Origin: Cinnamomum chago | Taxonomy: Eukaryota > Streptophyta > Magnoliopsida > Laurales > Lauraceae | NCBI GenBank assembly: GCA_038049695.1 | Contig: CP142451.1 | Span: 11,530,001 to 11,594,000, forward strand | Direction of reading: 5' to 3' | Length of the DNA: 64,000 bases | In this document: piece after piece, positions 22,501 through 51,766 of the stretch | Layout of the letters: each line of letters opens with the position of its first letter | Position numbering within the stretch: the stretch's first letter is position 1 | The notes under the pieces: generated by a model | The model's database searches: none | What the model was told of the DNA's origin: nothing | The model's input: only the letters and a program-made list of their open reading frames with translations | Translations under genes and position numbers: made by a program

Positions 22501-25500
22501 TTGGATAAGTCCTCAAAGGCTCCCAAAATTCTGTGAGTTTATATTTTCAGCACTTACAATTGGCGCCGTCTGTGGGAAACGATTTGCATAGTCTTCCCTG
22601 ACATCATGACTAGGAGAGCTACGAAAGGCGGAGAAACATCCAAGACACTGTTAAAGTATAAACTTGTATGATAAATAGGCCCAACTCACTTGTATGATAA
22701 TAGGCCCAGCCCACTTGTACATATGAGATCTAGTCATAACTTGTATAGTAGACTAAATCGTATGTTAGGCTGTTTTACCATATTTAGAGATTTAATTAGG
22801 TTCTGATTTGATGATTTGTAGCCTAAATCTAGGCAATGTAAACTCTATATAAAGAATAGCAATCCAAGAAGACAAAGAGGTCGATTGGAATCATTTTCAC
22901 AAAAGTCTCTTTCTCTCTCTCTCTCATCTTTCTCTTTCTCTCTCTCTGTCATGGTATCAGAGCTTAGGATATGATCAATCTTCTTCTCTCATTGATCCAC
23001 TGAGTCTTCCTGGCGTGGATCTTCTTCCTGGCGTGCTGATCTTCTCTGTTACTGTCACTGATCAAAAGTGGCCCACCACGGATCATCTTCGTATCTCCAA
23101 GATATCACTACAGTTGTGATCGACTATCCTTGAGGGTCTTTTTAAGGATTTTTATGGAATTTTTCCATCAGCTTTGAGGTAGGTTCCAGCCACTTCTTAC
23201 TCTGTCGTTTTTAATCAAGTTTGGTCAGATAGTTTTCATCAAGACCGTCCAGATTTGTGGATCTGTATCCAAATCTCCTCATACTTGGACTGAATGAAGT
23301 AACTTTGATCTTCTTTAAGATCTTCAAACCTGATCTGTGTTTTGATCACCCTGTGGGGCCCACGAACAGATCTGGTCCCAAAACTCCAATTCGTTTGGGC
23401 TGTCTGGGCTGTCTGGCAGTGTCTGGGGGCTCTCTTCTGCTATTTGTTAGTCCTGTTTGCTGTTGTTGATGCTGCTTGTTACTGTTAAGGGCTGATTAAT
23501 TGGGTACTGCTTAGTGTTATTGCTGCTGTTAGTACACTGATTGCTGCACTATTATTTCACTGTTGAATCTGCACTGTTGGGGCTGTTTTCTAAGAATATT
23601 TCTGCATTGATATTATGGAGAAAAATGATATCACTCTGGTTAAGTTTAATGGTAAAAACTATACCACTTGGTCTTTTCAATTTCAAATTTACCTTAAGGG
23701 TAAAGAACTCTGGGGACATCTTGATGGTTCAGATCCCAAACCTATTGATGATAAGCTTCTCCCTAAATGGGAGGTTAAAGATTGTCAGATCATGACTTGG
23801 ATATTGGGATCCGTCGATCCACAGTTTATCCTGAACCTTCGCCCATACAAGACGGCCCAAGAAATGTGGCATTATTTAAAGAAAATATATTTACAGGGAA
23901 ATTCTGCTCGACGGTTTCATTTAGAACACGAAATCTCGCAGTTTGTTCAAGGGACCCTGTCGATACAGGATTACTACTCTCAGTTTACAAGTCTGTGGAC
24001 TGATTATGCTGAGATTATTTATGCTGACCTTCCCGCTGCCTCCTTATCCTCTATTCAAGAGATCCATCAAACAAGTCAGCGGGATCAGTTTCTGATGAAG
24101 TTACGGCCACAATTTGAAACTGTCCGCTCCAACTTAATGAGCAGGGTGCCATCCCCCTCACTCGAATCATGTTTGGGCGAACTTCTTAGAGAGGAGCAGC
24201 GCTTGGTGACTCAGACAACACTTGCACAGACTTCTCCTCAGGCGGCTCCTATCGATGTTGCTTATATAGCCCGGGGTAAGCCCCAAGCCCGAGACATGAG
24301 CAAGGTCAAATGTTTTTGCTGTCAAAAACTCGGACATGTTTCCACTCAGTGCAACCAGAAGTTTTGTTCCTACTGCAAAACCAAAGGTCATGTTCTTCCA
24401 GAATGCAGGACACGACCTCAGAACAGGCCACAGCAACAAAGAGCTTATTCTGCACATCTTCCTGAAGCTTCTTCACCAGTCATGCCTGCACCACCTGAAG
24501 AGTCTTCACTAGTCATGCCTGCACCACCTGCTGCCACTTCTTCTTCTACCCTTACTCCTGAAATGGTCCAACAAATGATCATAAATGCTTTCTCTGCACT
24601 TGGCCTGTCAGGTAAACCAAAATTTTCAGAATCCACCTGGTATATTGATTCAGGGGCCTCCAATCATATGACACACTCTCCTGCGAATATGACTCATATT
24701 AGGAAGTATGATGGAGACCTCTGCATCAATACTGCTGACGGTGGCAGTGTTCCCATTACCGCTGTTGGCCATGTTCCTCACTCCTTGCCCTTGCATAATG
24801 TTTTTCTGTCTCCTCGCTTAACCACCAATTTGTTATCAGTTGGTCAACTTGTTGATAATAATTGCTCCATCCTTTTTTCTCGCTCTGGTTGTGTTGTGCA
24901 GGATCAAGTATCGGGGAAGGTGCTAGCGAAGGGCCCTAAGCAGGGAAGACTGTTTCCTCTCCAGATTTCGTCACAAGAAAGGCCTCCTTCAGAGTCTGCT
25001 TTGCTTTCTCATTCTAGTCATAATAAATGCCAGTTATGGCATAATCGTTTAGGACATCCTAATTCCAAAACTTTGATGTTTTTATTGAATTCTGGTTTAA
25101 TTAATGATAATAAAGTTTCTTTTAAGGATGTTTCTTCTAATTGTGATAGCTGCAAGATGGGGAAAGGGAAAACCCTTCCGTTTCCTCTTCATGATTCTTT
25201 GGCTCTGAAATGTTTTGATATTGTTCATAGTGATGTCTGGGGTATTGCACCTGTTATCTCTCATTCTCATTATAAATACTTTGTTACATTCATTGATGAT
25301 TATAGTCGTTTTACTTGGATTTATTTTTTGCATTCTAAGTCTGATGTTTTCTCGGTTTTTAAGGTTTTCTTGTCTTATGTTGAGAATCAGTTTTCCACTA
25401 CCATTAAAATTCTTAGATCTGATTCAGGGGGGGAGTATGTTTCTAAGGATTTTCAACTATTTTTGCAAACCAAAGGAATTATCTCCCAACGATCTTGTCC

Positions 25501-28500
25501 CTACACCCCCCAACAAAATGGTGTGTCTGAACGAAAAAACCAACATCTTTTAGATACTGCTCGTTCCCTCTTGTTAGCTTCTTTTGTCCCCACTAGGTTT
25601 TGGCCCGAAGCCCTCTCAACCGCTGTGCATGTAATAAATCGTTTACCTTCCTCTAGATTAGATAACCAGATACCTTTTTTTAGACTTTTTCAAAAAAATC
25701 CTCTTTATGATCATCTTCGTCCCTTTGGGTGTGTGTGTTTTGTTCTTCTCCCTCCCACTGAGCGTACTAAGTTAACAGCACAGTCCTCCAGATGTACCTT
25801 TCTTGGGTATGCTCTTACTCAAAAAGGCTATCTATGTTATGATCCTATAGCCAAAAGAATTCGGGTGTCTCGCAATGTCGTGTTTTTCGAAAATCAGTAT
25901 TTCTTTCCAAGGCATGGTGATTCGAATGACTCTGTTCCTTTATCTTTTTTACCACCCTTTTCAGATGCAATACCTCAACCGGTTACTCGTTTTAGGCCAA
26001 ATTTTGTGTATGAACGACGGAAGGTTACAGCTGATTCTGCCTCTGGGTCTCTCCCTACGCCTACCATTCCTGCACCTGATCCTGCACTTGATCCCCCTCC
26101 GGAGCCTCCTGCTCTTCGCCGATCCACTCGCCACATCAGGCCCCCTGATCGTTATGGCTTTACCCATGCTTCATTATTAACCACTTTATCTTCTGTTTCT
26201 ATCCCTAACTCATACTCTCAGGCAGTACAGCATGATTGTTGGATACAGGCTATGCAGAAAGAACTTACCGCTCTTCAAACAAATCATACATGGGACGTCG
26301 TTCCTTGTCCTTCATCCGTCAAACCCATTGGATGCAAATGGGTATACTCGGTGAAATTGAAATCTGATGGATCATTGGATCGCTACAAAGCCCGCCTGGT
26401 TGCACTTGGAAACAGGCAGGAGTATGGTATCGACTATGAGGAGACTTTTGCTCCGGTGGCCAAAATGACAACTGTACGTACAGTTCTTGCAATAGCCGCT
26501 TCTCAGTCGTGGCCCCTGTATCAGATGGATGTGAAGAATGCATTTCTTCATGGGGACCTTCAAGAGGAAGTTTATATGCGTCTCCCTCAGGGAATTCCTT
26601 CTTCTTCCAAGACTGATGTCGCTCGTTTACGACGCTCCTTATATGGCCTTAAACAGGCGCCCAGAGCCTGGTTTGACAAGTTCCGTACCACTCTCCTCTG
26701 GCTTTCTTTTATCCAAAGCCCGTATGATCCTTCGATGTTCACGATTCATTCATCCAGAGGATCTACAATTCTCCTTGTGTATGTCGATGATATCATCATT
26801 ACTGGCCCACACAGTGATATGATTCGACAGATACAGGCCGCTCTGCAAGATACATTTCATATGAAGGATTTGGGACCTTTGAATTATTTCTTGGGTTTAG
26901 AAGTTCATCAATCAAAGAAAGGTTTGTTTCTGCATCAACACAAATATGCTACTGACCTTGTGGCTCTCGCCGATCTAGGTGATTCTACCCCAGTTGACAC
27001 CCCTTTGGAAGTGAATGTTAAGCTTCGTCAACAAGATGGTGAGCTCCTTCCTGATCCTACTTTTGATCGTCGGTTAGTTGGTAGCCTTGTCTACCTAACC
27101 ATCACCCGACCAGATATCTCTTATGCTGTTAATCTGGTCAGTCAGTTTATGACAGTCCCGCGGCATCATCATTTGGCGGCAGTCAAACGGATCATTCGAT
27201 ATATCCTTGGTACCTCTACCCGTGGCTTATTTTTTCCAGTTGGCACACCGCTTACACTTACTGCTTATTCTGACGCGGATTGGGCCGGCTGTCCGGACAC
27301 ACGCCGCTCTACCACAGGATGGTGCGTTTACTTGGGAGACGCCTTGATATCTTGGAAATGTAAAAAACAAGATAAAGTCTCAAAATCTTCCACGGAATCA
27401 GAATACCGTGCAATGTCTTCCGCTTGTGCTGAGATCCTATGGCTACGTGGGTTGCTCTCAGAGCTTGGATTCTCACAGACTCAATCAACTCCTCTTCATG
27501 CTGATAACACAAGTGCTATTCGAATCACTGAAAATCCTGTGTTTCATGAACGGACTAAGCATATAGAGGTGGACTGTCACTTCATTCGGGACGAGTATGA
27601 TCGCAAAGTCATTACTCTTCCCCATATTTCCACTGAGTTCCAGCTTGCTGATATCTTCACCAAGGGCCTTCCACGGCCGCGGCATGAATTCTTGGTTCGC
27701 AAATTGTTGCTGGTTGATTCCCCGCATCAATTTGAGGGGGGGTGTTAAAGTATAAACTTGTATGATAAATAGGCCCAACTCACTTGTATGATAATAGGCC
27801 CAGCCCACTTGTACATATGAGATCTAGTCATAACTTGTATAGTAGACTAAATCGTATGTTAGGCTGTTTTACCATATTTAGAGATTTAATTAGGTTCTGA
27901 TTTGATGATTTGTAGCCTAAATCTAGGCAATGTAAACTCTATATAAAGAATAGCAATCCAAGAAGACAAAGAGGTCGATTGGAATCATTTTCACAAAAGT
28001 CTCTTTCTCTCTCTCTCTCTCATCTTTCTCTTTCTCTCTCTCTGTCACAACGTGTAGGACCGTCCTTTGACCTCCTTTCTGCCAAGAAGAAGTCTGGGAA
28101 GAAACCTGTTGCAGAAGACTACGATGAACGTGATTTCATCCAAGTCAACGTCCAGGAGCATAACCTTCTCTCGGAGTCACTCTCGAGGGGAATAACGGCG
28201 TCTCTCCGGCGGGGAGACTCTCGACAGCAGCTTAGAGAAGATCTCCCGCTGGGTCGGGTTCAACGGAGCAAGTCTCCAGCGGTGGATAAGCCAGCTCTCT
28301 CTGATCAACCGGAGGACGATGATGATGAAGATTATAATCTTGATGATGACTTCGACTCCACCCTTGAGGAGATTAGAGCGCAAAATGCCACCATCAGAGA
28401 AAAAGGCGCATTGATCCGCCAGCTCCAGCAACAGCTGGAAAGAGCGACAGGCTCGACCAGGCAGCAGCAGTCGCAGCGACATGACGAGGGAAGAGCTTCT

Positions 28501-31500
28501 CACAGCAGACGCACTGCTCCCCCTGAGGCTTCACCTGAATGAGAAGAGGCGCGATCGAGCTCGCGATGAAGGCTCGAGCACCAATCGCAGCCATTCGAAG
28601 AGAGTGTCGGAGACCATTCTAGAGGACAGGTACGACAATCAGGAGTGGCTCGACGAGCGCATCAAGCTGACAGTCCAGCGCAACCTGGAGGTGGCTGGTC
28701 TCGCCTGAAACCAACGGGATGCCTGCGAGTCCATCGATCTCGGCACATCACCCTTCTCTCGCGACATCAAGAATTATCCCCTTCCGAGGAAGTTCACCAT
28801 CCCGAGGTTCGTCACTTACGACGGGACTTCGGATCCGGCTGCTCACCTGCGACACTTCTCCCAGACGATGTCTGTTTGGGGGGACGAGGGCAACCTAAAC
28901 TGTCGAGTCTTCTCCTCCAATCTGGGTGACCTCCCCTTGAAGTGGTTTTGTGCGCTCCCAGAAGAGTCCATTTCGAGTTGGCAGCAGCTCCAGCAGTCCT
29001 TCATGAAGAAATTTCAGGCCTACAGAATCATGCCGAAGACGGACGCAGATATTATGGCCTTGAAAATAAAGTGAGAGGAGAACATCACCCGTTTCGCCAA
29101 GCGATTTTGGACAGTCTATAGCCAGATCGTCAGCCAGTTCGGCGAAGGCTCCAGCATCCACCTCGGGAGGAAACAAAAGGCCTAGGCTATCCGTAGACCC
29201 ATACAGGGCAGTCAACACTATCTTCAAGGAGCCCATCCACAAGATTATGAACAAGATTAAGGCAAAACCGTTCTTCAGTTGGCCGCAGCCCATGAGGGGG
29301 GACCCATCCTCCAGGGACCAGATCAGATTCTATGCATATCACAAGCAGGGCGGGCATAAGACCGAAGAATGCAGGATATTGAGGTCACACTTGGAGAAGC
29401 TCGTCCAAGACGGACACCTGCAAGAATACATCAAGGCGGGTGCCAGGGATGACAACCAGGCCCCACGCCAAGACGAGAGGAGCCAAGATAGTGATGGGTC
29501 TGAAAAGCTCATAAGCGTCATCCATCTAGCTCCCCCTCCCAAGGGGAGTAACCGAGCTCGCGCTGAATCCAGGCGGGCCTCCCACAGCGAGCAGGTGTTG
29601 GCTGCCGAACTCGGCTCAGCTCCCAAGAGGGCTAAGAGAGAACGGCCCAAGATCTGGTTCTCTGACGCAGACCTGGAAAGGGTCTAGCTCCCCCATAATG
29701 ACCCGTTCATCGTCACTCTGAAACTGAAGGACTGCACCGTGCAGAGGATCCTTGTCGACCCCGGCAGTTCATCCGAGGCCTTCTATTTCGATTGCTTCAG
29801 AAGGATGGGCCTGACGAAGGATCTGTAGGAAGCCTGAACTCCCCTCATAGGCTTCAGTGCCAAGCCGGTCCAAAGGAAAGGTAACCCTCAGAGTCAAAGT
29901 CGGCGGAGCATCCGTGATGACAGACTTCCTGGTGGTTGACGCGCCATCACCCTACAACGCCATAATGGGCAGGACATGGCTCCATAGTATGGAGGCAGTC
30001 CCCTCTACTCACCACCAAAAGCTGAAATTTTCATTGGAAAATAGGAATGGCAGAGTGGAGATAATTACAGTCCGAGGAGACCAGCAAGCGGCCAAGCAGT
30101 GTCTGATGGCCGTGGTGTCCGGGAAACGAGAGCCCAAGCAGGTCCACATGGCCGAGATGGAGAAGAAACTGGACGAGGTCGGCTAGGACCCGGAGACGAA
30201 AAGCGAGGAAGACCTGACCGAAGTCAGGATCGACCCGAACGATCCGGAACGGTTCTTCCTGCTCGCGGAGCCAGAGAAGTCAGAGTTGGCCCAATTTTTG
30301 GTACAGAACAGAGAAGTCTTCGCCTGGACACCCCACGAGATGCCTGGCATTGACCCCGAGGTCATGTGCCACAAGTTGAATGTGGACCCTCGCCACAGGC
30401 CCGTAATACAGAAAGCTCGTAGGATTGGGGTGCCTCAGACAGAGGCCGTGATCGAGGAGGTGGACAAGCTGCTCGAGGCCGGAGTGGTCAGGGAAGTCCA
30501 GTACCCGACCTGATTGGCCAATACGGTGGTTGTCAAGAAAAAGATAGAAGAGTGGAGGGTGTGTGTCGACTTTACCGACCTCAACAAAGCTTGCCTTAAG
30601 GACAGCTTCCCTCTCCTGAAGATCGACCAGATGATCGACGCTACTGCTAGATACGACAGGATGAGCTTCCTTGACGCGTACCACGGCTGCCATCAGATAC
30701 CAATGCATGCGCTGGACGAAGAGAAGACAGCATTCATAACTCCCAGAGGCACTTACTGTTACAAGGTGATGCCGTTCGGATTGAAGAACGCGGGGGCCAC
30801 CTACCAGCGACTCGTCACCAGGATGTTTCAGGCCCAGCTCGCCAAGACCGTTGAAGTCTATATTGACGACATGGTCGTCAAGTCCAAACAGGCGCAAAAC
30901 CATTTGGAAGATCTGGCTCAAGTCTTCGATATTTTGAAGAGGTTCAAACTCAAGCTCAATGCGTCTACGTGCGCCTTCGGTGTCCGTTCCGGAAAGTTCC
31001 TTGGAAGCTTGGTCACACGCAGAGGGATCGAGGCGAATCCAGATCAGATCTCGATCATTCTCAAAGTACAGAGTCCCACTACTGCGAAGGAGGTCCAGAA
31101 GCTCACTGGCATGGCGGCCGCACTAAATCGCTTCATCAGCAGATCCTCAAATAAGTGTCGGCCTTTCTTTCAGCTTCTTAGGAAAAATTCCAAATTTCAA
31201 TGGACTCCGGAATGTGACCAGGCCTTGCAGGAGCTCAAGGCCTATCTATCTTCACCCCCTTTGCTCTCAACTCCGATGCACGGAGAAGTTTTGTACTTAT
31301 ATCTGGCGGTCTCGGATCATGCGGTGAGCTCGATCCTCCTTAGAGAAGAGGACAAGCTTCAAAAGTCAGTCTATTATACGAGCAAAACCCTCATCGATGT
31401 CGATACCAGATACCTACCCCTAGAGAAGCTCGCGCTGGCATTCGTCAGCGCCTCGCGTAAGCTCTCCCACTATTTCCAGACTCACACTATAGTGGTTGTT

Positions 31501-34500
31501 ACGGAACATTCACTCAAATCCGTTTTCAAAAAGGCTGACTTTTCAGGAAGGATCTCCAGATGGGCCGTCGAGCTGGGACAGTACGATATTCAGTATCAGC
31601 CCAAGACAGCGATCAAGGCCCAAGTGTTGGCAGACCTTCTCATGGAGTTCTCTCCGAGTTCGGCACCAACCCAGCTCAGCACCGAACTGGGGGGCCAGGG
31701 GGATGAAGCGCCCACGGGCTCTGAACAGTCACAAGGCCAGACCCTAACCCCAGTTTGGAGAGTCTTCGTTGACGGATCCTCCACTTCAAGAAGAGCTGGT
31801 GCAGGGGTTGTCCTCCAGTCTCCAGAAGGGCTGGTCATCGAACAGGCCCTAACCCTGGATTTCAAGGCGTCAAACAACGAAGCAGAGTACGAAGCCCTGA
31901 TAGCAAGACTAAACAACGCCAAAATCCTCAGAGCTCAACAGCTATTGGTCTTCAGCGATTCACAGCTGGTGGCGAACCAGCTGACTCGGGACAGGATGGC
32001 CGCTTATCTAGCCCTTGCAAAGAAGCTGCTCTCTCAGTTCCAGATGGTCGAAATCAGGCAGAGAGGCAGAGAGTCAAATTCTCACGCCGACGCCCTTGCC
32101 AATTTAGTCTATGCTGTCGAAGCAGGCAGGAGAAGAAACATTGAGGTAGGATCGCTGGCCATGCCCAGCATAGAGCTTCATCCACCTCGGGAAGTAATGT
32201 GCATTGATCTCGGCCCGAGCTGGATGGACCCCATCATAGCATACTTGAAGGATGGCCAGCTCCCTGAGGACAAGAGCAAGGCTCACCGAATCAGACTCAA
32301 AGCAGTCCGGTTTTGGTTGTCTCCTGAGGGCAAGCTTTACAGGAAGTCCTTCACAGGCCCCTACCTCCAGTGTGTTCATCCAAGCAGAGTCGAGGATTTC
32401 CTCTATGAGATACACGAAGGGATCTGCGGAAGCCACATTGGAGGTAGGTCTCTAGCATACCGCGCCATCAGCCAAGGCTATTGGTGGCCGTATATGCAGA
32501 AAAACGCACAGGTATACGCCAGAAAGTGTGAGAAATGTCAGAAATTCTCTCATTCCCTCCATCAACCAGCCCAAGATCTCAGTCCGCTCTCCAGGCCATG
32601 GCCATTCGCCCAATGGGGGCTCGACATTATGGGACCACTTCACCGAGCTCCAGGGAACAGGAGGTGGCTAATTGTAGCCACCGACTATTTCACCAAATGG
32701 ATCGAGGCGGAACCGTTGTCTTCCATCACAGAGCAAGATTCCAAGAACTTCGTATGGAAGAACATTATCACGAGGTTCGGCATTCCAAGAACTTTGGTCT
32801 CGGACAACGGGACCCAGTTCGACTCCAATCTCTTCAAAGGTTTTTGCCAAGGGCTCGGCATCAGGAACCACTATTCTACTCCAGCGTACCCTCAGAGCAA
32901 CGGCCAAGCTGAGATTTCTAATAAGGTGATACTTGATGGGCTCAAGAAGCGACTTGACCAAGCTAAGGGAAGATGAGTAGAAGAACTTTCAAGCGTCCTA
33001 TGGGCTTATAGAACTACCCCGAGGCGCTCCACTTCCGCAACGCCTTTCTCCCTTGCCTACGAGATGGAGGCGGTCATCCCTCTGAAAATTGGCCTCCCGA
33101 CCCTAAGATCCAAACTCTTCGACCAAGGACAGAATGAAGCAAATCTGGCCAGAGAACTGGATCTAGCCGATGAGCGAAGGGAAGTGGCAGCAGTAAGATT
33201 GGCTGCCTATCAGCAACAGCTGGCCAAGGGTTACAACCAGAAGGTCAGAGAGCAGAAATTCTCAGTTGGAGAGCTAGTTCTAAAGAAAACACTCCTAGGG
33301 GATAAGGATCCTAATCAGGGTAAACTGGCACCGAACTGGCACGGACCGTTCAAAGTAACTTCCATTGCTATGCAGTCAGCTTATAGACTCGAAGACATGG
33401 ATGACCGGCAGCTGCCGCGACCGTGGAACGCATTGCACCTTAAGAAATTCTATTTTTAGTTTGTACTTGTACTCCAAGCATTTTCAAGATTAATGATAAG
33501 CCGCCTTTGTTCTTGGTTCCATGACGTTCTAAATGGCCACCAGCAGTCCGGCAACAATGCCCTTGATGAGATAGCCTTGGGTCGGTAAAAACCACCCAGG
33601 CGTGAAGCCATTACGGCCCTTGATGAGATTGCTTTGGGTCGGTGTAAACCACCCAGGCGTGAAGTCATTACGGCCCTTGATAAGATCGCTTTGGGTCGGT
33701 GTAAACCACCCAGGCGTGAAGCCATTACGGCCCTTGATGAGATCGCCTTAGGTCGGTGTAGTCGACCCAGGCGTGAAGCCTTTACGGCCATTGGCGTTCC
33801 CACCTCGGATCGGCAAACGCCACCCACGCGTGGATCCATTTCGGCTAAGTTGCCTCTAGTTTCATTCACGCCGAAATGAGTGAGACCTCTAAGGTTGACG
33901 AGAGCCCCAAACGGTTATAGGTCACTCATGACCAAGTTCTAAACTGACCGGTCTACCTCAAGCCAAACTCATACTTGTGAAAAAAGTGAGAACGCGGAAA
34001 AATAATGACAAGCCACGGGCAAGCAGAATTCAAAATGGACACAATGATTTGAGGCAAATTGAGAAATTTTATTGAAGATCTTTTGTTTGTACAAATGTCT
34101 AATTACAAGTTTCTACCAAAGCAAAAAGAAAAAGGGGTACACTTCTATATATACAACAGAATTTAGGGTGACCCAGCCACATCATATTCGGTGTTCGCCG
34201 CTTCGGCGCCGCCTGTTGGAGGAGCCTCGGGAAAGCCTGGCGCTGTGTCGGCGGAAGTCTCCGGTGGAGGAAGAGTTGCGGAAGCCTCGGCAGGAGCTTG
34301 GAGCGCAGACGGGGCTCGCCCGAACTCAGGAGGGTTCTGGTACAAAGGATGATCTTCGGGGACCCCCATCTCCTTGAGTACGGCGCGACAGCCGAGCTGA
34401 AACAGCTTCGGACTCAACTTTTTGATCTGGTCGGTGTAGTTCCGGCCCGCGTCTGCTACCCCTTCTAAGAAAGCGGCGTCGACCTCAGCCCTGGTCGACG

Positions 34501-44348: not shown

Positions 44349-45136
44349 CCCGTATGTAGAGAAGGAAAAGTAAAAACACAAATAAATCTCTGTTCTGTTC
44401 TAGTCCCTACCAAGTGGGGAAGGAGGGAATATAAGAGACAAGTAACAAAGTACCATGTATTTATTATTGTTAAAAATGTAGATGGCTCAAATTAAATGCC
44501 TCCTTTTGTTTGGACAAAGTAACTCTTAATTATTTTAAAATATTTATTCTCACAGTAATTTTTCGATTATCATCATCAAAATCTTATTTCAATTACGTTG
44601 GATCAACTACATGAATTATGTTTTTCCGTCCTGAACTATTTTGAGTCAAATTCTCATATAAGCTTCTCCATTTTGATCATCACCACAACAATTTCTCAAT
44701 AATATTAAAAAAACATATGTCGTTGTGCAAGACGACAAGATTAATCCCCTAGAGCATGCACGATCGTATCACACATGTGCACTAAGTAGATTTGATGGTG
44801 TCAAGCACACAACATGAGGAGAGAACTCACACCTTATGCCCATGACCCAACACCTAAGTGGAACTGGTTTCACACACAAAAAAAAAATTAAATCCTTTTT
44901 TTCAAGTTGTTATTTTAATGTGATTCTATGCTCGCCTTAGATGAGCTTTTTTATTTTTCCATCAGCAAAAAATTCATTTCCTATGAAGTAACCGTATAAA
45001 TAAACCTACATAGTCCATGCCCGTTTGGCACTTTATTAGATTAGTAAAAGTCAAGTAAATACTTTATTTTCCAAACAAAATGTCACATCAATAACGCTTT
45101 AATTCTAAATTTCCTCCATCTTGTTAAAAAAAAAAG
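44349..45136. other. Intergenic, DUF21 promoter region
   Basis: This AT-rich 0.8 kb lies between the DUF21 5' UTR and the Mutator-like element. No open frame of note and no further repeat structure was seen. Confidence 0.5.
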
Positions 45137-45177
45137 GGGGGTGCTATTCGCACAACGAATTTAGCTTTTCCCACACA
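45137..45177. repeat. Left terminal inverted repeat
   Basis: It pairs with 51716-51756 with mismatches at positions 4, 5 and 13 only. One extra G at 45136 makes the outer border uncertain by a base. Confidence 0.9.
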
Positions 45178-45428
45178 ATTTCTCTCCACACACATAACAA
45201 AAATTTAAAAATAGCATTTTTTCTTTCCACACACAGCAGAAATCCCCATTATAGCCCTCTCTTCATTTCCCTCTTTCTTCCCACACACACACACGTTTTT
45301 CATCCACAGCAGTTTGGGTTTTTCATCCGGCCGATCCACCTTGCTTCCGCTCTCTGTCTCCGGCGTCTTTTATCTCTCCGGCGTTACTCCGGCATTCACA
45401 ATCCTCTACACCATCTCCTCTTTCAAAG

Positions 45429-45799
45429 GTAAATCTCTATCTCCACCATTGTCATTTCATTTTTCTTCACCATTCATTCTTTACCATTTTATTCATCTTA
45501 GATTACCTTTTTTTTCATGAAAACTTGTTATAGGGATAGATTCTCATTGAATGTAAGTTTTTACAAACAATGGTGATGATTTTCCTTGCATTTGGGCTGG
45601 TTTGTACACCATCATCGCCAGCACGGTTTGTTCTGACCTGAAAGTCCGAACAAATTGGATTTGTTCGGATGTTTAGGTCCGAACAAAATGATTTTGTTCG
45701 GACTTTCAGGTCCGAACAAATGGACTTTGTTCAGACCTGAACATCCGAACAGTTTGATGCAAAAACCATAATCCTACAATGTTTGTATTTTTATTTCAG
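45429..45799 (+). other. Inferred 5' UTR intron of the PMD gene
   Basis: TTTCAAAG with GTAAATCTC at 45429 is a good donor. ATTTTTATTTCAG ending at 45799 is a good acceptor, just before the ATG at 45802. The first hairpin array lies inside it. Confidence 0.5.
45626..45752. repeat. GTTCGGA/TCCGAAC hairpin array 1
   Basis: Repeated blocks such as TTTGTTCGGACTTTCAGG with TCCGAACAAA form self-complementary units of about 25-30 bases. There are at least three pairs in 127 bases. The array lies upstream of the PMD start, within the inferred 5' UTR intron, about 0.5 kb from the left end of the element. Confidence 0.9.
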
Positions 45800-45801
45800 A
45801 T

Positions 45802-47667
45802 ATGGACCAACCGAGCTCTTCTAGGGTGCGACCTACTGCTTCTAACAGAAGGCGTCGCCACCCAGTTGTAGAAGAACCTGTTCTTCGTGAGGAGGACGTT
45901 GAAGAACAACCAGAGATGGAAGAGCAACCATCTCATGGGCCACCAGATAGGTCGTTACTAACCAGCTTTGATACACATATAGCTGGGCATATTTGGAGTG
46001 GAGAGGTGTTTCGTTTGTTTCATATGAACTTTGATTGATTGATTAAGTTGTGAATTTATTCGATAATGATGTATCAATTGTTAACTGCAGGATCAAGGAG
46101 CATTGAAGTGTCTAAGCCATGGTCAAAAAGTGTCATTGTGGCAATGGCAATTGAATGGATCTGATAGGTTCAGGCGATGGATGTCCAGGTCCAGTTTGGC
46201 TCCCTTAGTGACTGCATCATACCGCAGTGTCAATAAGATTATTGTATCGGGTTTTGTGGAAAGGTGGCAACCTGAGACTAACACCTTTCACATGCCATTT
46301 GGTGAGATGACCATCACTTTAGATGATGTTGCATCCATCATAGGCATCCCAGTGACGGGGCGGACTGTCTCGTACAATGATAGAATGTCATATGAGGAAG
46401 CTCAAGCACTCCTTGTTGATGCACTAGGAGTAGAAGCCATAGAGGCACATGATGAGCTGATCCAGGTGCGGGGTCAATCTGTTAGATTGGAGTGGCTACG
46501 GGAAAGGTTTGGTGGAATGTCTGACGATGATGGAGAGGAGATGGTTGACTGTGCAGTCAGAGCTTACCTTCTGTACTTACTGGGATGTACGTTGTTCACA
46601 GACAAGAGTGGCACAAGGGTGCCGATCATATATCTTACACATCTGGTGGATTTGGATAACGTACGTTCATATGCATGGGGTACTGTTGCACTGACATATT
46701 TATACAGGCAGTTGGGGTTAGCAACCCGGCGTGAAGTTAAACAAATGGCCGGTTACCTGACTCTATTTGAAGCTTAGGTGTACGAGCACTTCGAATGTTT
46801 GGCTCCAACTCCAAACATTCACTATCAGCCCTCCCACCTCCGAGTCCATCGATGGGTCTCTCGTAGGGAGTCTGCGCCTTTACAGGCATTACGAGAGACT
46901 TGATTCCATGAGCACTGACTTGGAAATTACGCAAAGTTTCTTACTCATTTTCTATCACATGATGTTATTATTCTGTATTATGTATTTTCATATCTTATAC
47001 TTGGATTCACCATTTTCAGGTTACTTGGGACCCATATCGTGATGTTAGGCGCTTTCACCCATTCAACGAGGTTGCATACTAATGTGGATGCATCAAGTGC
47101 ATGGATGTTGTTGAGCCTCATCATCCGGATAGGGTGCTCGGACAGTTTGGGAGAGTACAAACTATTCCTCCACCGCCATTAGCCCCCATTCGCGCTACGC
47201 GAGGTCCGACTGCCCGTGACTACCATATCGCGTATCAATACATGAATCAAATTTGGGAGGGATGGTCTAATCACCTACTGTCTGCATTGAACCGTAGTCA
47301 ACCGGTAAGGCGTCCTGCAGATTGTGTTCCCGGGTATATGGATTGGTACAGACGAGTCTCATGGAGGATATTACAAAACCCAAATCATCACTCTAATTTT
47401 GCTCCCGGACCCGACGAAACACAGTCAAGCAATGCGGTGAACTATGAGCATCGTAATTCGGATGCACTATTCATTCTTGATGAAGTCATGGAAAGGGGTG
47501 AGGACCATTGGGTTGAAGATCCACGGGGACTATATACCCATGTGAATCAGGTTGCCCACGTTTTACGGGGAATGTCCATTGCCGATGCTCAACGAACCAT
47601 TCGACATCCCCACATGAGTTCACAGAGTTACACCCGTAGCAGGTCAACAAGGGGAAGGAACAACTGA
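45802..47667 (+). pseudogene. Plant mobile domain (PMD) protein gene, broken
   Basis: The PMD family (MAIL1/MAIN-like, aminotransferase-like plant mobile domain) occurs both in host proteins and in transposons. Exon 1 is 45802-46005 (MDQPSSSRVRPT; 68 codons). Exon 2 starts at 46091 and holds the domain core: VERWQPETNTFHMPFGEMTI, LDDVASIIGIPVTGR, RAYLLYLLGCTLFTDKSG. A third exon starts at 47020 (VTWDPYRDV; MDVVEPHHPDRVLGQFGRVQ) and ends at 47667. Breaks: TAG at 46775 (FEA-stop-VYEHF, where tryptophan is usual), a frameshift near 46870, and TAA at 47080. Its place opposite the transposase resembles that of mudrB in MuDR, but it is unrelated in sequence. Confidence 0.82.
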
Positions 47668-47936
47668 AATGATGAAGAAGTTTAACTAACAAAAACCAAT
47701 GGTTGTAGTCATTTTTTTATTATTTTTGTAATTTGGATGGTTGTTATAAGACTTGGAACCTCTTTTAAGTTGTCTTTTATTTGGAAAGTGGTTGTACTTT
47801 ATTAATTAATTCAAATGGTATTTTGTTTACTTTACCTTTGATTTTATGTTTGGAATATGCTTGAATTGTTACAGATGTAGAACCATATATCTTCAATGAA
47901 AATCTTCGAAAAGGACGAACTGAACATGTTTTGAGA

Positions 47937-48114
47937 GTTACAGTTAATGTTCGGAAACACAGTGCCGAACCAAACCAGTCTGTTCGGAAACACAGTACCG
48001 AACGAAACCAGTTTGTTCGGAAACAAAGGTCCGAACCAACCCATTCTGTTCGAAAACACAGAACCGAACAAAACCATTATGTTCGGCACTGTGTTTCCGA
48101 ACATTAACTGTAAC
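47937..48114. repeat. GTTCGGA hairpin array 2, closed by 34-bp perfect inverted repeats
   Basis: Bases 47937-47970 and 48081-48114 are exact reverse complements of each other over 34 bases (GTTACAGTTAATGTTCGG and on). Between them are further GTTCGGAAACA / CCGAAC blocks at roughly 35-base spacing. The array sits between the convergent 3' ends of the two genes, so either readthrough transcript would fold here. Confidence 0.92.
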
Positions 48115-48403
48115 CATTTTGTTCGCATTTAAAAACCTGTCTGTATTCGGCCGGCAAAACCAATGCATCCTAGTAGTTTTAAAATTTCTTCATACATCAA
48201 AGCATTCATTAAATACAATAAAAAGACATTACTAAAACACATTCCAAACTCCATCAAATGTTTAAAAATAGTTATTACATGCAACATAAAGTCTCACATA
48301 CACCATGTAGTTCTATTCAATCCAAATCAATTGTCTCACATGTTGATACATCTGGAGTTACAAGCTCTTTGAATTGTACAATCCGATCCCTGTATGGAGT
48401 CTC

Positions 48404-51400
48404 TCAACCATTCGCACAAGAGTGATGAAATTGTCTCCACTTATTTGCAATGGGCGGAATTGGATGACCAGGTACTAAGAATAATTGAACAAAATGATTC
48501 TGATTAACAAAACCTATTGTTCGCTCGTTCCGAGAAGGTGTCGGCACTGGCACAGACCGCAATGGGAGGAAAGTCAGACACTGTTCTATGCTCAAGTGGT
48601 ATAACACCAAATTATAACGAGATGCTATGAGGTGCCCCATGTCAGGCATAGTCATCCAATTGTCCATCGATGGGTTGTCATCATAGTATGATAATGCTTC
48701 CACCAATTCCTCAACTCTGTTCTCCACCGCATATAATTGTTTGTAGTGGTCTACATGTGCAAGCAACTCTTGTAATAAATCTCTCCTAACTTGTCTCCAT
48801 TCATCCTCGGCTAGTCCAACCAAACCAGCGATGGCTCTGAATCCACAGTTACCATCAGCTGCGACGTCCTTTACATGTCGAATGTAAGGCCTCAACCCCA
48901 CGGGAAATGAGAGAACATAATTATTAATGCTCCTTGACCTCGTACGAATCGCACTAATCTTTTCTCTTCTCTTTTGTTTGCATTCTAACCATCCTGAATT
49001 AGGAGAGTAGTTATCCTGTGCAGACGATACCAACTCAAATGCGCTTGGATCTCGTCGGGTTGAGGTGTCAACTTTCATACTTGGTCTACCTCTTGTTCTT
49101 AATTTTACTTCAGGTTCTATCAAATGAGTACTTTCTGGTTTTGATAGTTCTCGTATCTTCTTTAGAAGTTGCAGTTTTCTTGTGGAATCATATTCATTGA
49201 ACCGTTTTTCCAGTAACTGCAAATCTGCCTTACAATCCAGGCCCATAGAAGAACTTGTTGACGGGGCAGTAGGCAACATATCAAGCTTACACCAATGCGG
49301 ATGTATGCAACTTAGAGGAATAGGCCGCCCTTGACTTATATATTCAGCAATCTCATGCGCACAGGGTAATCCATGTGTGCGTCGAATAACACAACCACAA
49401 ACACTGGCGTCAATTCCAACTACGTTGGCTCTCTTGGTTTCTGTTAAGATTTTCTCAAGTGCATTCTTAGAGACATTACCGCGAAGCTCTTTGTATTCGG
49501 CCGGCTTGAAATTATGTTGCACAATTGTCTTACTTTTCTCAAATGAAGCTTTGATACCGGTATGCTGCAACTCTAGCAAATTGTGGATTTTAGTCCAAAC
49601 CGCTTCAAAATTTCCTTGACTTGATCCCAGCTGCCTCTTAAGCTGTGCGTGTGAACTCTCAGCCCTGCATATGATTGTTAAGAGGTGAGACATAGCAATT
49701 AATAGGCATAAATCAAATAGAAGGTATTTTTTAAAAAGTACCTATTCGAAGTAGTATTCCCAAAATGGATACTATTGTCTGTCCATGCAGAAACAAATCT
49801 CTCCTTGTAATGATCTAACCAATTACCCTTCACGTAATTGAGTGCATCAGGATACGTACTGAATTCTTGATTTAGCTTACGTAGTTGTTCACCAAACTCC
49901 TCTTCTGTTGATGAAGACACTAACATATTCCAGTTCATAATAAACCTGTCTCATTTCTCTTTAGTTTCAAAAAACTTTTTGCATCTCGCCAATACGTTTC
50001 TATTAATATGCCATTTGCATAATAAATGAGTTGCACTCGGGAATACTCTGTTAATGGCGTTCATGAGTGACAGTTCTCTGTCCGTCACAATGACATCGGG
50101 AAGAATACCATCACCTATAATTTCCCGCAATACACCCAATGCCCATGCATAATTATCTTCGCGTTCTGCATGAAGGTATGCAAAGCATACAGAAAAAGTC
50201 ATGTCTGTGGATGTGACTCCAACAACCTCCAATAGAGGCATGCGATAACGATTGGTCTTGTAAGTACAGTCCATTATCAAAACATGTGGAAATGCACGTA
50301 ATAAATCTAAACTGCTTGGGTGCGTCCAAATCAAGTCAGTTACAGTATCGCTGTCCTCACAAGTCTTATGCCATTCAATGTAATTATGCTCTGTTAGCTT
50401 CCCAAGCAGTTGTTGCATCTGACTTCTTCCACCCCGATCATTAACTTTATATCTGTAGCGTGCATTGTATATTGTCTTCATTGTGGTTACGTTTAATTCA
50501 CTTCTTTGTTTCAACGTAACCAAAATTTCTTTTGGTCTAACCATGCTCTTGGACATATCAACCAGCAACTGAGTTTCCTCCTTTGATAATCTGCCTGCAA
50601 AAGAATGCCCCTCTAAATGTTCTGCTACCGAATGATTGTGCACGCCACATGTGACCTCCAACATCCAATCATCATTTGAGTCTAACTTTATGCCCTTTAA
50701 TGCGAAAGGGCATCCACATTTTTTTGAACCGGTTTGTTTGACCCTTTTTCGCTTTTGGCCCTTTTCATGCTTATATTGTCCACTTCTCTCGCATGCAAGG
50801 AGTACTCTAGGTTTGACACCTATCCGAGCAGCATTTGAAACCTTTATCACAATGACAAACCCGTTTTCCCGTCCTACACCACGAGCCCAACTGATCAATG
50901 AATCGCGACTGTGAAATATCTACAGTAAACAATTTTAATATTAATTTAGTAACAAATATTTATAATTTGAGTAATAAATTCACAATCGGACATACCTCTT
51001 GAGTTATAAACTCACTGGTATAATCCATGACAAACTCCGATCCAACCTGACTTTCCTGCGTAGAGACCTACAAAAAATACATAATAATATGTCAATGTTC
51101 GGTATGAAACATCCGAACATATGAAGTGTTCGGAATTTCAGGACTTCACAAAAGGCATTTGTTCGGACATTAAAGTCTGAACAAAAGCCATTTGTTCGGA
51201 CTTTAATGGCCGAACAAAATCCATTTGTTCGGACTTTAATGTCCGAACAAAAGCCATATGTTCGGACCTGAAAGTCCGTACATATCGAGAACCTGCAACT
51301 CGTTCCAGGTGAGAAAAAAATTAAAAAAAGAGGTAAAATAAATAAAAAACACAAACAAACAAAGGAACTGACCTTTCCAATACTACTTTGGTTTAAAGTT

Positions 51401-51429
51401 ACAATTTGATTGTTGTTTTCTTCCTTCAT
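48404..51429 (-). pseudogene. FAR1/MULE transposase fused to an OTU-like protease, one nonsense codon
   Basis: Four exons are inferred: 51429-51373, 51067-50996, 50919-49742, 49664-48404. Phases agree and total 855 codons, with one internal TGA at 49951-49953 (ETKEK-stop-DRFIMNW, where relatives have tryptophan). A FAR1-type zinc-binding region (KKCGCPFALKG; CGVHNHS) comes first. The MULE transposase domain has LIMDCTYKTNRYRMPLLEV, PDVIVTDRELSLMNAI and CKWHINRNV. A SWIM zinc finger reads CGCVIRRTHGLPCAH. The C-terminal third is OTU-like: VAADGNCGFRAIAGLVG gives the catalytic Asp-Gly-Asn-Cys, and NHFVQLFL gives the His. Apart from the TGA it looks intact, so function needs readthrough or another copy. 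Confidence 0.9.
51097..51281. repeat. GTTCGGA/TCCGAAC hairpin array 3
   Basis: About five self-complementary units such as TTTGTTCGGACTTTAATG with TCCGAACAAA, spaced about 34 bases, lie wholly inside transposase intron 1 (51068-51372). This is about 0.5 kb from the right end, mirroring array 1. Confidence 0.92.
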
Positions 51430-51715
51430 TGCACTAGAAAGTAGAGGAATGTAAGTGAAGATTAGTAGAAAAGTGGATGGAGGAAGTAGAGAGTGAGAAG
51501 TAGAAAGTAAATGGCTTGAATAGGAGAAGAAAATGGAGGAATGTGAGTGAAGATGAGTTGCCTAAGGAAGGTGGAGGAAGTGAAGAATGAGATGAGTGAG
51601 AGAGGAAGAAGCTTGTGTGTGAAAAGAAAATAGGTTTTGAGTTTTTATTGGACTATGTCTATTTTGGTCATTTCATGAAGGGGCATGAATGTAATAAAAA
51701 AAAAACAAGTTTCCT

Positions 51716-51756
51716 TGTGTGGGAAAAGCTAAATTCGTTGTGCCAATAGCAAGCCC
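51716..51756. repeat. Right terminal inverted repeat
   Basis: It is the reverse complement of 45137-45177 at 38 of 41 positions, followed by ten A. Confidence 0.9.
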
Positions 51757-51766
51757 AAAAAAAAAA

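Follow-up and report, generated by a model that had tools for sequence, protein, structure and literature searches.

The 64,000-nt stretch of the Cinnamomum chago genome analysed here (GCA_038049695.1, contig CP142451.1, positions 11,530,001-11,594,000, forward strand; hereafter the window) contains, at 45137-51756, a bounded DNA transposon in which a plant mobile domain (PMD) gene, a convergent gene for a Mutator-like element (MULE) transposase ending in an OTU domain, and three arrays of a short palindromic motif travel together. We think it somewhat likelier true than false that this is a FAR1-type Mutator-like transposon with two genes that brings along an anti-silencing module of its own, in which the PMD protein would bind its cognate arrays and remove silencing marks, permitting transposase expression and mobilising mainly array-bearing relatives. 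The preliminary description of this DNA, which saw a composite MULE with a separate PMD gene, is upheld in its overall interpretation.

The ends of the element (Table 1) are 93% complementary over 42 nt, the core of these terminal inverted repeats (TIRs) occurs in only two places within the window, namely the two ends, and runs of ten adenines on both sides act as the target duplication of this copy. The inverted ends first described as 41 bp are thus real but measure 42 nt, and the poly-A flanks are exactly these runs. In the host genome (1.061 Gb, 14 contigs) we retrieved and aligned 15 full-length copies, the window copy included, with pairwise identities of 98.1-99.5%; this is a lower bound, as 20 of 1615 first-look candidates were scored. 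All 15 carry target duplications of 8-10 bp, within the roughly 8-11 bp typical of MULEs, and those of the 14 other copies are different and AT-rich (the one of L009 was judged by eye, and TIR bases may be counted in some of the longer ones). All 15 also have all three arrays, so that the components proposed to occur together do so in every full copy. Truncated or interrupted copies (L017-L023) are found in the same genome too, and L035, going by the sequences of its arrays, is another copy. Searches with a TIR 20-mer gave no match in viral contigs and one in bacterial genome contigs, in a Chitinophagales metagenome-assembled genome, which we take as chance since neither similarity to PMD or transposase nor a periodic array was found in 8 kb around it.

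The minus-strand gene encodes a MULE-type transposase (PF10551, E=3.7e-26) with an N-terminal FAR1 domain (PF03101, E=3.7e-7) and a C-terminal SWIM finger, the arrangement that defines the FAR1 type and that had been proposed; SWIM gives no Pfam match in the transposase, and its CxCx9CxH motif was recognised by eye. The OTU domain said to be fused after SWIM is likewise borne out, though not by Pfam, which makes no OTU call in the window protein at E 0.1. Instead, the segment has profile matches to OTUD5 (E=4.7e-4) and, more weakly, to OTUD3 (0.027) and VCPIP1 (0.043), its model lies above a confidence score (pLDDT) of 90 in most blocks of residues 281-445, and that model has structure matches to OTU domains. 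The fold comes with the Asp, Cys and His of an OTU cysteine protease, kept in 42, 39 and 42 of 43 aligned sequences, and activity is predicted. The segment is present in 107 of 120 listed relatives (106 of the 119 that have the SWIM region), and the exon that bears it shows a ratio of nonsynonymous to synonymous divergence (dN/dS) of 0.15 between families B and C (see below). We infer a working ubiquitin-type protease. No OTU-fused MULE transposase was found among the matches listed in the open-licence literature. Five annotated Rosaceae relatives (P0125, P0126, P0129, P0131 and P0173) add AWS and SET domains to a FAR1-OTU transposase, in two clusters of 35 and 37 member sequences, which may reflect a gene that was domesticated or a gene-model fusion that recurs; in two Actinidia relatives (P0122, P0123) the transposase carries an FHA domain.

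The PMD gene reported on the plus strand is clearly present, its product scoring 144 bits against PF10536 (cut-off 34.9). A joined-query search for PMD-transposase fusions found both Pfam domains in none of the best 120 of 138 proteins. In a tree of 16 rows, where the window PMD fills 38% of the alignment columns, it groups with Camellia, Rosaceae and Cinnamomum proteins (95/97), separately from the MAIL2 group (100/100), and its nearest neighbours are ambiguous. The predicted structure of a relative, 54% identical to exon 2 of the window PMD, has the fold of VANC21, the anti-silencing protein of the VANDAL21 transposons (PDB 9lnj), and nothing in BFVD matched the model at E below 0.001. By sequence, the window PMD stays below the Pfam cut-off for DUF1985, the domain of VANC proteins (19.8 bits against 35.1); a DUF1985 search of the host genome gave no match, and neither did its controls. 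DUF7745 matches are also seen in eight of 50 PMDs (best 3.8e-6), spanning much of the PMD in P0001 and P0016, so that DUF7745, PMD and DUF1985 may form one superfamily.

What had been described as two convergent spliced genes are indeed both present and convergent, with predicted introns, but in the window copy both are broken: the PMD gene has lost a splice donor at 46923, and a second in-frame TGA in the transposase lies near 48406, besides the lesions listed in Table 1. Across the 15 copies, the PMD frame (561 amino acids, with predicted GT/AG introns) is open in eight and the transposase frame (884 amino acids, 893 in one copy) also in eight, both together in three. Among the 471 singleton changes, C>T and G>A account for 59%, which we read as fitting decay of methylated DNA. 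Transposase variants common to several copies look constrained (13 nonsynonymous to 15 synonymous, 0.35 of expectation), whereas singletons show no constraint (120 to 40, 1.21 of expectation; Fisher p=0.0034); among PMD singletons the counts are 75 and 40 (0.77).

The three arrays first described comprise 15 units in the window. Of the 22 occurrences of TGTTCGG on both strands of the 64 kb, 21 fall inside them, and unit matches at up to three mismatches number 16, 15 of them in arrays, against 1.7 in shuffles. The motif halves mostly alternate at 17/16-bp spacing. Comparison of array 2 with the other two gives identities of 94% and 84% for the two 7-bp cores, 33% for the inner ten bases and 42% for the linker. 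Copies differ in array length by one whole 33-bp unit in three cases, and by other lengths elsewhere. Genome-wide, TGTTCGG-N10-CCGAACA occurs 1463 times and the reversed pattern twice. The first 50 listed sites form 16 clusters, of which three (the window element among them) have three arrays, four have two or more in other numbers and nine are single, one of the latter adjoining a listed family B transposase; such an exact-site search misses decayed or divergent arrays. Palindromic sites, in the cluster at G000:C1:350791-356350 and in others, are many more than the scored copies explain; a few of these clusters have the three-array geometry and others are single.

The distinct family suggested at the outset, with PMD, OTU transposase and arrays, is evident well beyond the 15 copies. 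With a relative's transposase as query, 48 loci were scored, none of them among those copies; the transposase was the search anchor and hence always present. At 37 a PMD lies within 6 kb, in all 37 convergently, against about 0.1 expected, and these figures come from a PMD list of 117 scored among 5124 candidates. Two of the 11 apparently PMD-less loci (L035, L040), when read, each had a PMD and three arrays. Representatives of family B (L032, target duplication 8 bp), C (L033, 9 bp) and D (L034, a decayed near relative of C) each show the three arrays in matching positions, before the PMD gene, between the genes and beside the transposase 5' end, and arrays were found at all five further loci read. 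Four listed PMD loci with no transposase in 5.5 kb showed no periodic sites when read. In Camellia sinensis, three scaffolds are shared between 36 with a PMD and 30 with a transposase, against 0.60-0.74 expected for an assumed genome size (p 0.02-0.04), and two of the three pairs are alike (PMD 72% by BLAST and 90% over ungapped MAFFT columns, transposase 77% and 93%).

Exact TCGG-N10-CCGA sites number 9, 12 and 10 in elements of family A (that of the window), B and C, against shuffle means of 0.04-0.06 (maximum 1), while no other gap between 2 and 30 yields more than three sites; L034 has five exact sites and 16 at up to one mismatch, and L040 has 12 exact. Family A differs from B, C and D by 0.69-0.82 synonymously, with proteins 59-70% identical, and this is one deep split, not several. 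Since core, gap and period survive it, sequence comparison points to selection on the sites. Because sites were chosen by their core, only the flank statistics are unbiased: half-site position -1 is T in 28 of 28 in the family A copy L003 and C in 37-66% in B, C and D, and position +4 is A in 82% in L003 and C in 66-77% in the other three.

How might these parts work together? VANC21 binds motif-dense tandem repeats in the non-coding DNA of VANDAL21 and is linked to hypomethylation there (PMC5735166, PMC10398659), and it is by analogy with this that we propose the PMD protein as the array binder and the binding as anti-silencing. The plus-strand gene would yield a PMD protein of VANC21 fold, and the minus-strand gene the transposase with its FAR1 zinc finger, MULE core, SWIM and OTU; the TCGG-N10-CCGA arrays, at a 33-bp period, would be the cognate binding platform. 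Upon expression, PMD would bind the arrays of element copies and clear them of silencing marks, in the way that VANC21 acts on VANDAL21, after which the transposase could be expressed and mainly array-carrying relatives mobilised.

Several points weigh against this anti-silencing proposal. PMD-array binding and its effect on methylation are predictions, the fold was modelled on a relative and not on the window protein, and a PMD profile found no relative among PDB sequences up to E=10. The window motifs alternate, while those of VANC21 have one orientation; the core is common to lineages whose PMDs are 59-62% identical, so that target switching is less clean than between VANC21 and VANC6, and flanks vary between arrays of a single element. 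PMD variants shared by family A copies (10 nonsynonymous to 2 synonymous, 2.07) show no constraint visible at that depth, and PMD dN/dS between C and the decayed D is 0.61. CpG decay, tried as a trace of hypomethylation and set aside, did not differ between arrays (0.019-0.046) and coding DNA (0.023, 0.035), the arrays lying no lower. MAIL1 and MAIN, which are PMD proteins of the host, promote silencing (PMC5418596). Finally, in 11 of 15 arrays the hairpin capacity goes beyond the motif, which also fits a role as RNA or cruciform DNA.

That last point belongs to the strongest competing account, which we nonetheless consider unlikely: the hairpins, once transcribed, would feed into small-RNA silencing, redirect it or block it, or would influence splicing or transcript ends. 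The hairpins themselves, claimed at the outset, are real. Folded whole as RNA, arrays 1 and 3 reach z -10.5 and -11.3 against shuffles, and array 2, closed by a 34-bp stem, -12.8; with motif cores kept and spacers shuffled, the three still reach -5.3, -9.1 and -7.0, and because this excess persists the arrays are hairpins as well as motif arrays. Over five elements (window, L032, L033, L034 and L040), 11 of 15 arrays fold better on this comparison (z -2.7 to -9.5). In each of the three window arrays the spacers resemble one another's reverse complements more closely than shuffled versions do; tandem repeats can, moreover, be sources of small interfering RNAs and targets of RNA-directed DNA methylation (PMC10398659). 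Yet four arrays, two of them in the decayed L034, show no excess (z -1.1 to +0.3), growth of an array by inverted duplication would give the same complementarity, core, gap and period persist between lineages where spacers do not (as between arrays, above), and a VANC-like PMD is left unexplained.

A shade less probable still is that the transposase, through its FAR1-type zinc finger, binds the arrays as enhancers or autoregulatory sites and that PMD is some other cofactor. Arrays do lie near both 5' ends, and the transposase, which has a FAR1 DNA-binding domain, is always present, if only as search anchor. In A, B and C, however, the first of the listed sites are about 0.5 kb in from the element ends and none is in a TIR, the motif is unlike the CACGCGC site of FHY3/FAR1, and it is PMD, not the transposase, that matches a protein whose structure was solved with its tandem-motif DNA. 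As for the idea that a PMD gene and unrelated repeats landed in a transposon by chance, PMD matches are certainly common in this genome (at least 133), but the duplications on every full copy, the convergent pairing and the arrays at further loci refute it for practical purposes.

Table 1. Parts of the Cinnamomum chago element, in window positions
Feature	Position	Strand	Basis and remarks
Left target-site duplication, A10	45126..45135	.	flank comparison
Left TIR, 42 bp	45137..45178	+	inverted-repeat search, 93%
Array 1, four 33-bp units TGTTCGG-N10-CCGAACA	45629..45751	.	upstream of PMD start; 5'-untranslated-region intron by eye
PMD exon 1 (predicted)	45802..46005	+	splice prediction
PMD exon 2	46091..46922	+	PF10536 8.2e-42; in-frame TAG 46775, frame shift near 46898
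PMD exon 3	47020..47667	+	PF10536 6.3e-10; splice donor before exon lost, TAA 47080
Array 2, five 33-bp units	47948..48103	.	between convergent 3' ends; enclosed by 34-bp RNA stem
Transposase exon 4, SWIM and OTU	48317..49664	-	profile, model, alignment
OTU domain in exon 4	48904-48407	-	Asp/Cys motif 48856-48833, His motif 48499-48482
SWIM motif in exon 4	49399-49355	-	by eye
Transposase exon 3, FAR1 and MULE domains	49742..50919	-	Pfam; in-frame TGA 49953-49951 in window copy
Transposase exon 2 (predicted)	50996..51067	-	splice prediction, copy comparison
Array 3, six units, some imperfect	51096..51282	.	transposase intron 1; intron GT/AG in 15/15 copies
Transposase exon 1 with start codon (predicted)	51373..51429	-	splice prediction, copy comparison
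Right TIR, 42 bp	51715..51756	-	inverted-repeat search
Right target-site duplication, A10	51757..51766	.	flank comparison

Elsewhere in the window, 23594-27748 is a single open frame of 1384 amino acids, a Copia-type polyprotein by eye, and 30514-33459 holds pieces of a Gypsy-type polyprotein, also by eye, with a 57-bp tandem array just past it (33559-33793).

Each part of the element recalls a known system. As in maize MuDR (mudrA and mudrB), two genes converge between the TIRs and one of the pair is accessory; to our knowledge mudrB is unrelated to PMD. Kaonashi and CUMULE are MULEs that bear a ubiquitin-like-protease domain, ULP1, whereas here it is OTU, at the C end of the transposase. VANDAL21 likewise pairs its transposase with an additional protein, one whose fold our PMD is predicted to share (PMC5735166, PMC10398659; PDB 9lnj). 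It also has short motifs repeated in tandem within introns, intergenic stretches and other non-coding DNA, its copies gain and lose repeats, and motifs differ from family to family. It differs in that our protein is a PMD (PF10536) that stays below the DUF1985 cut-off, that two genes are recognised in place of the VANA, VANB and VANC set, that these converge and the transposase carries OTU, and that VANC21 targets are YAGTATTAY in one orientation and not alternating, hairpin-forming sites. PMD-C proteins of grasses and Amborella are also carried by Mutator-like elements, and their authors too speculated on anti-silencing, but they are described as fused to the transposase (PMC5418596), unlike the separate convergent gene with arrays and OTU found here.

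A role of transposon-borne PMDs in anti-silencing has thus been suggested before (PMC5418596, PMC8616336), and a 2021 review describes the function of the PMD as unknown and says that little is known of how MAIN and MAIL1 act (PMC8616336). In the open-licence literature searched we found no joint mention of DUF1985 and the plant mobile domain and no precedent for the fold link, the array geometry or the convergent pairing with an OTU-bearing transposase; the authors of 9lnj may state the fold link, and a meeting report of January 2026 mentions unpublished VANC structure results. More tentatively, and with rather more doubt than belief, we suggest that PMD and VANC could form a single ancient family of chromatin de-repressors that bind DNA sequence-specifically, with array-bearing PMD elements as a second angiosperm anti-silencing system and MAIN and MAIL1 as captured or domesticated members turned to keeping silence.

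The predicted VANC21-like fold and a 24-bp candidate site, present about 15 times per element, make the function of this widespread plant domain directly testable. If our proposal is true, this would be a transposon protein with its own tandem-repeat targets outside the VANDALs, it would offer a candidate target logic for the host PMD proteins, and the element would suggest how a transposon may escape shutdown by its host.
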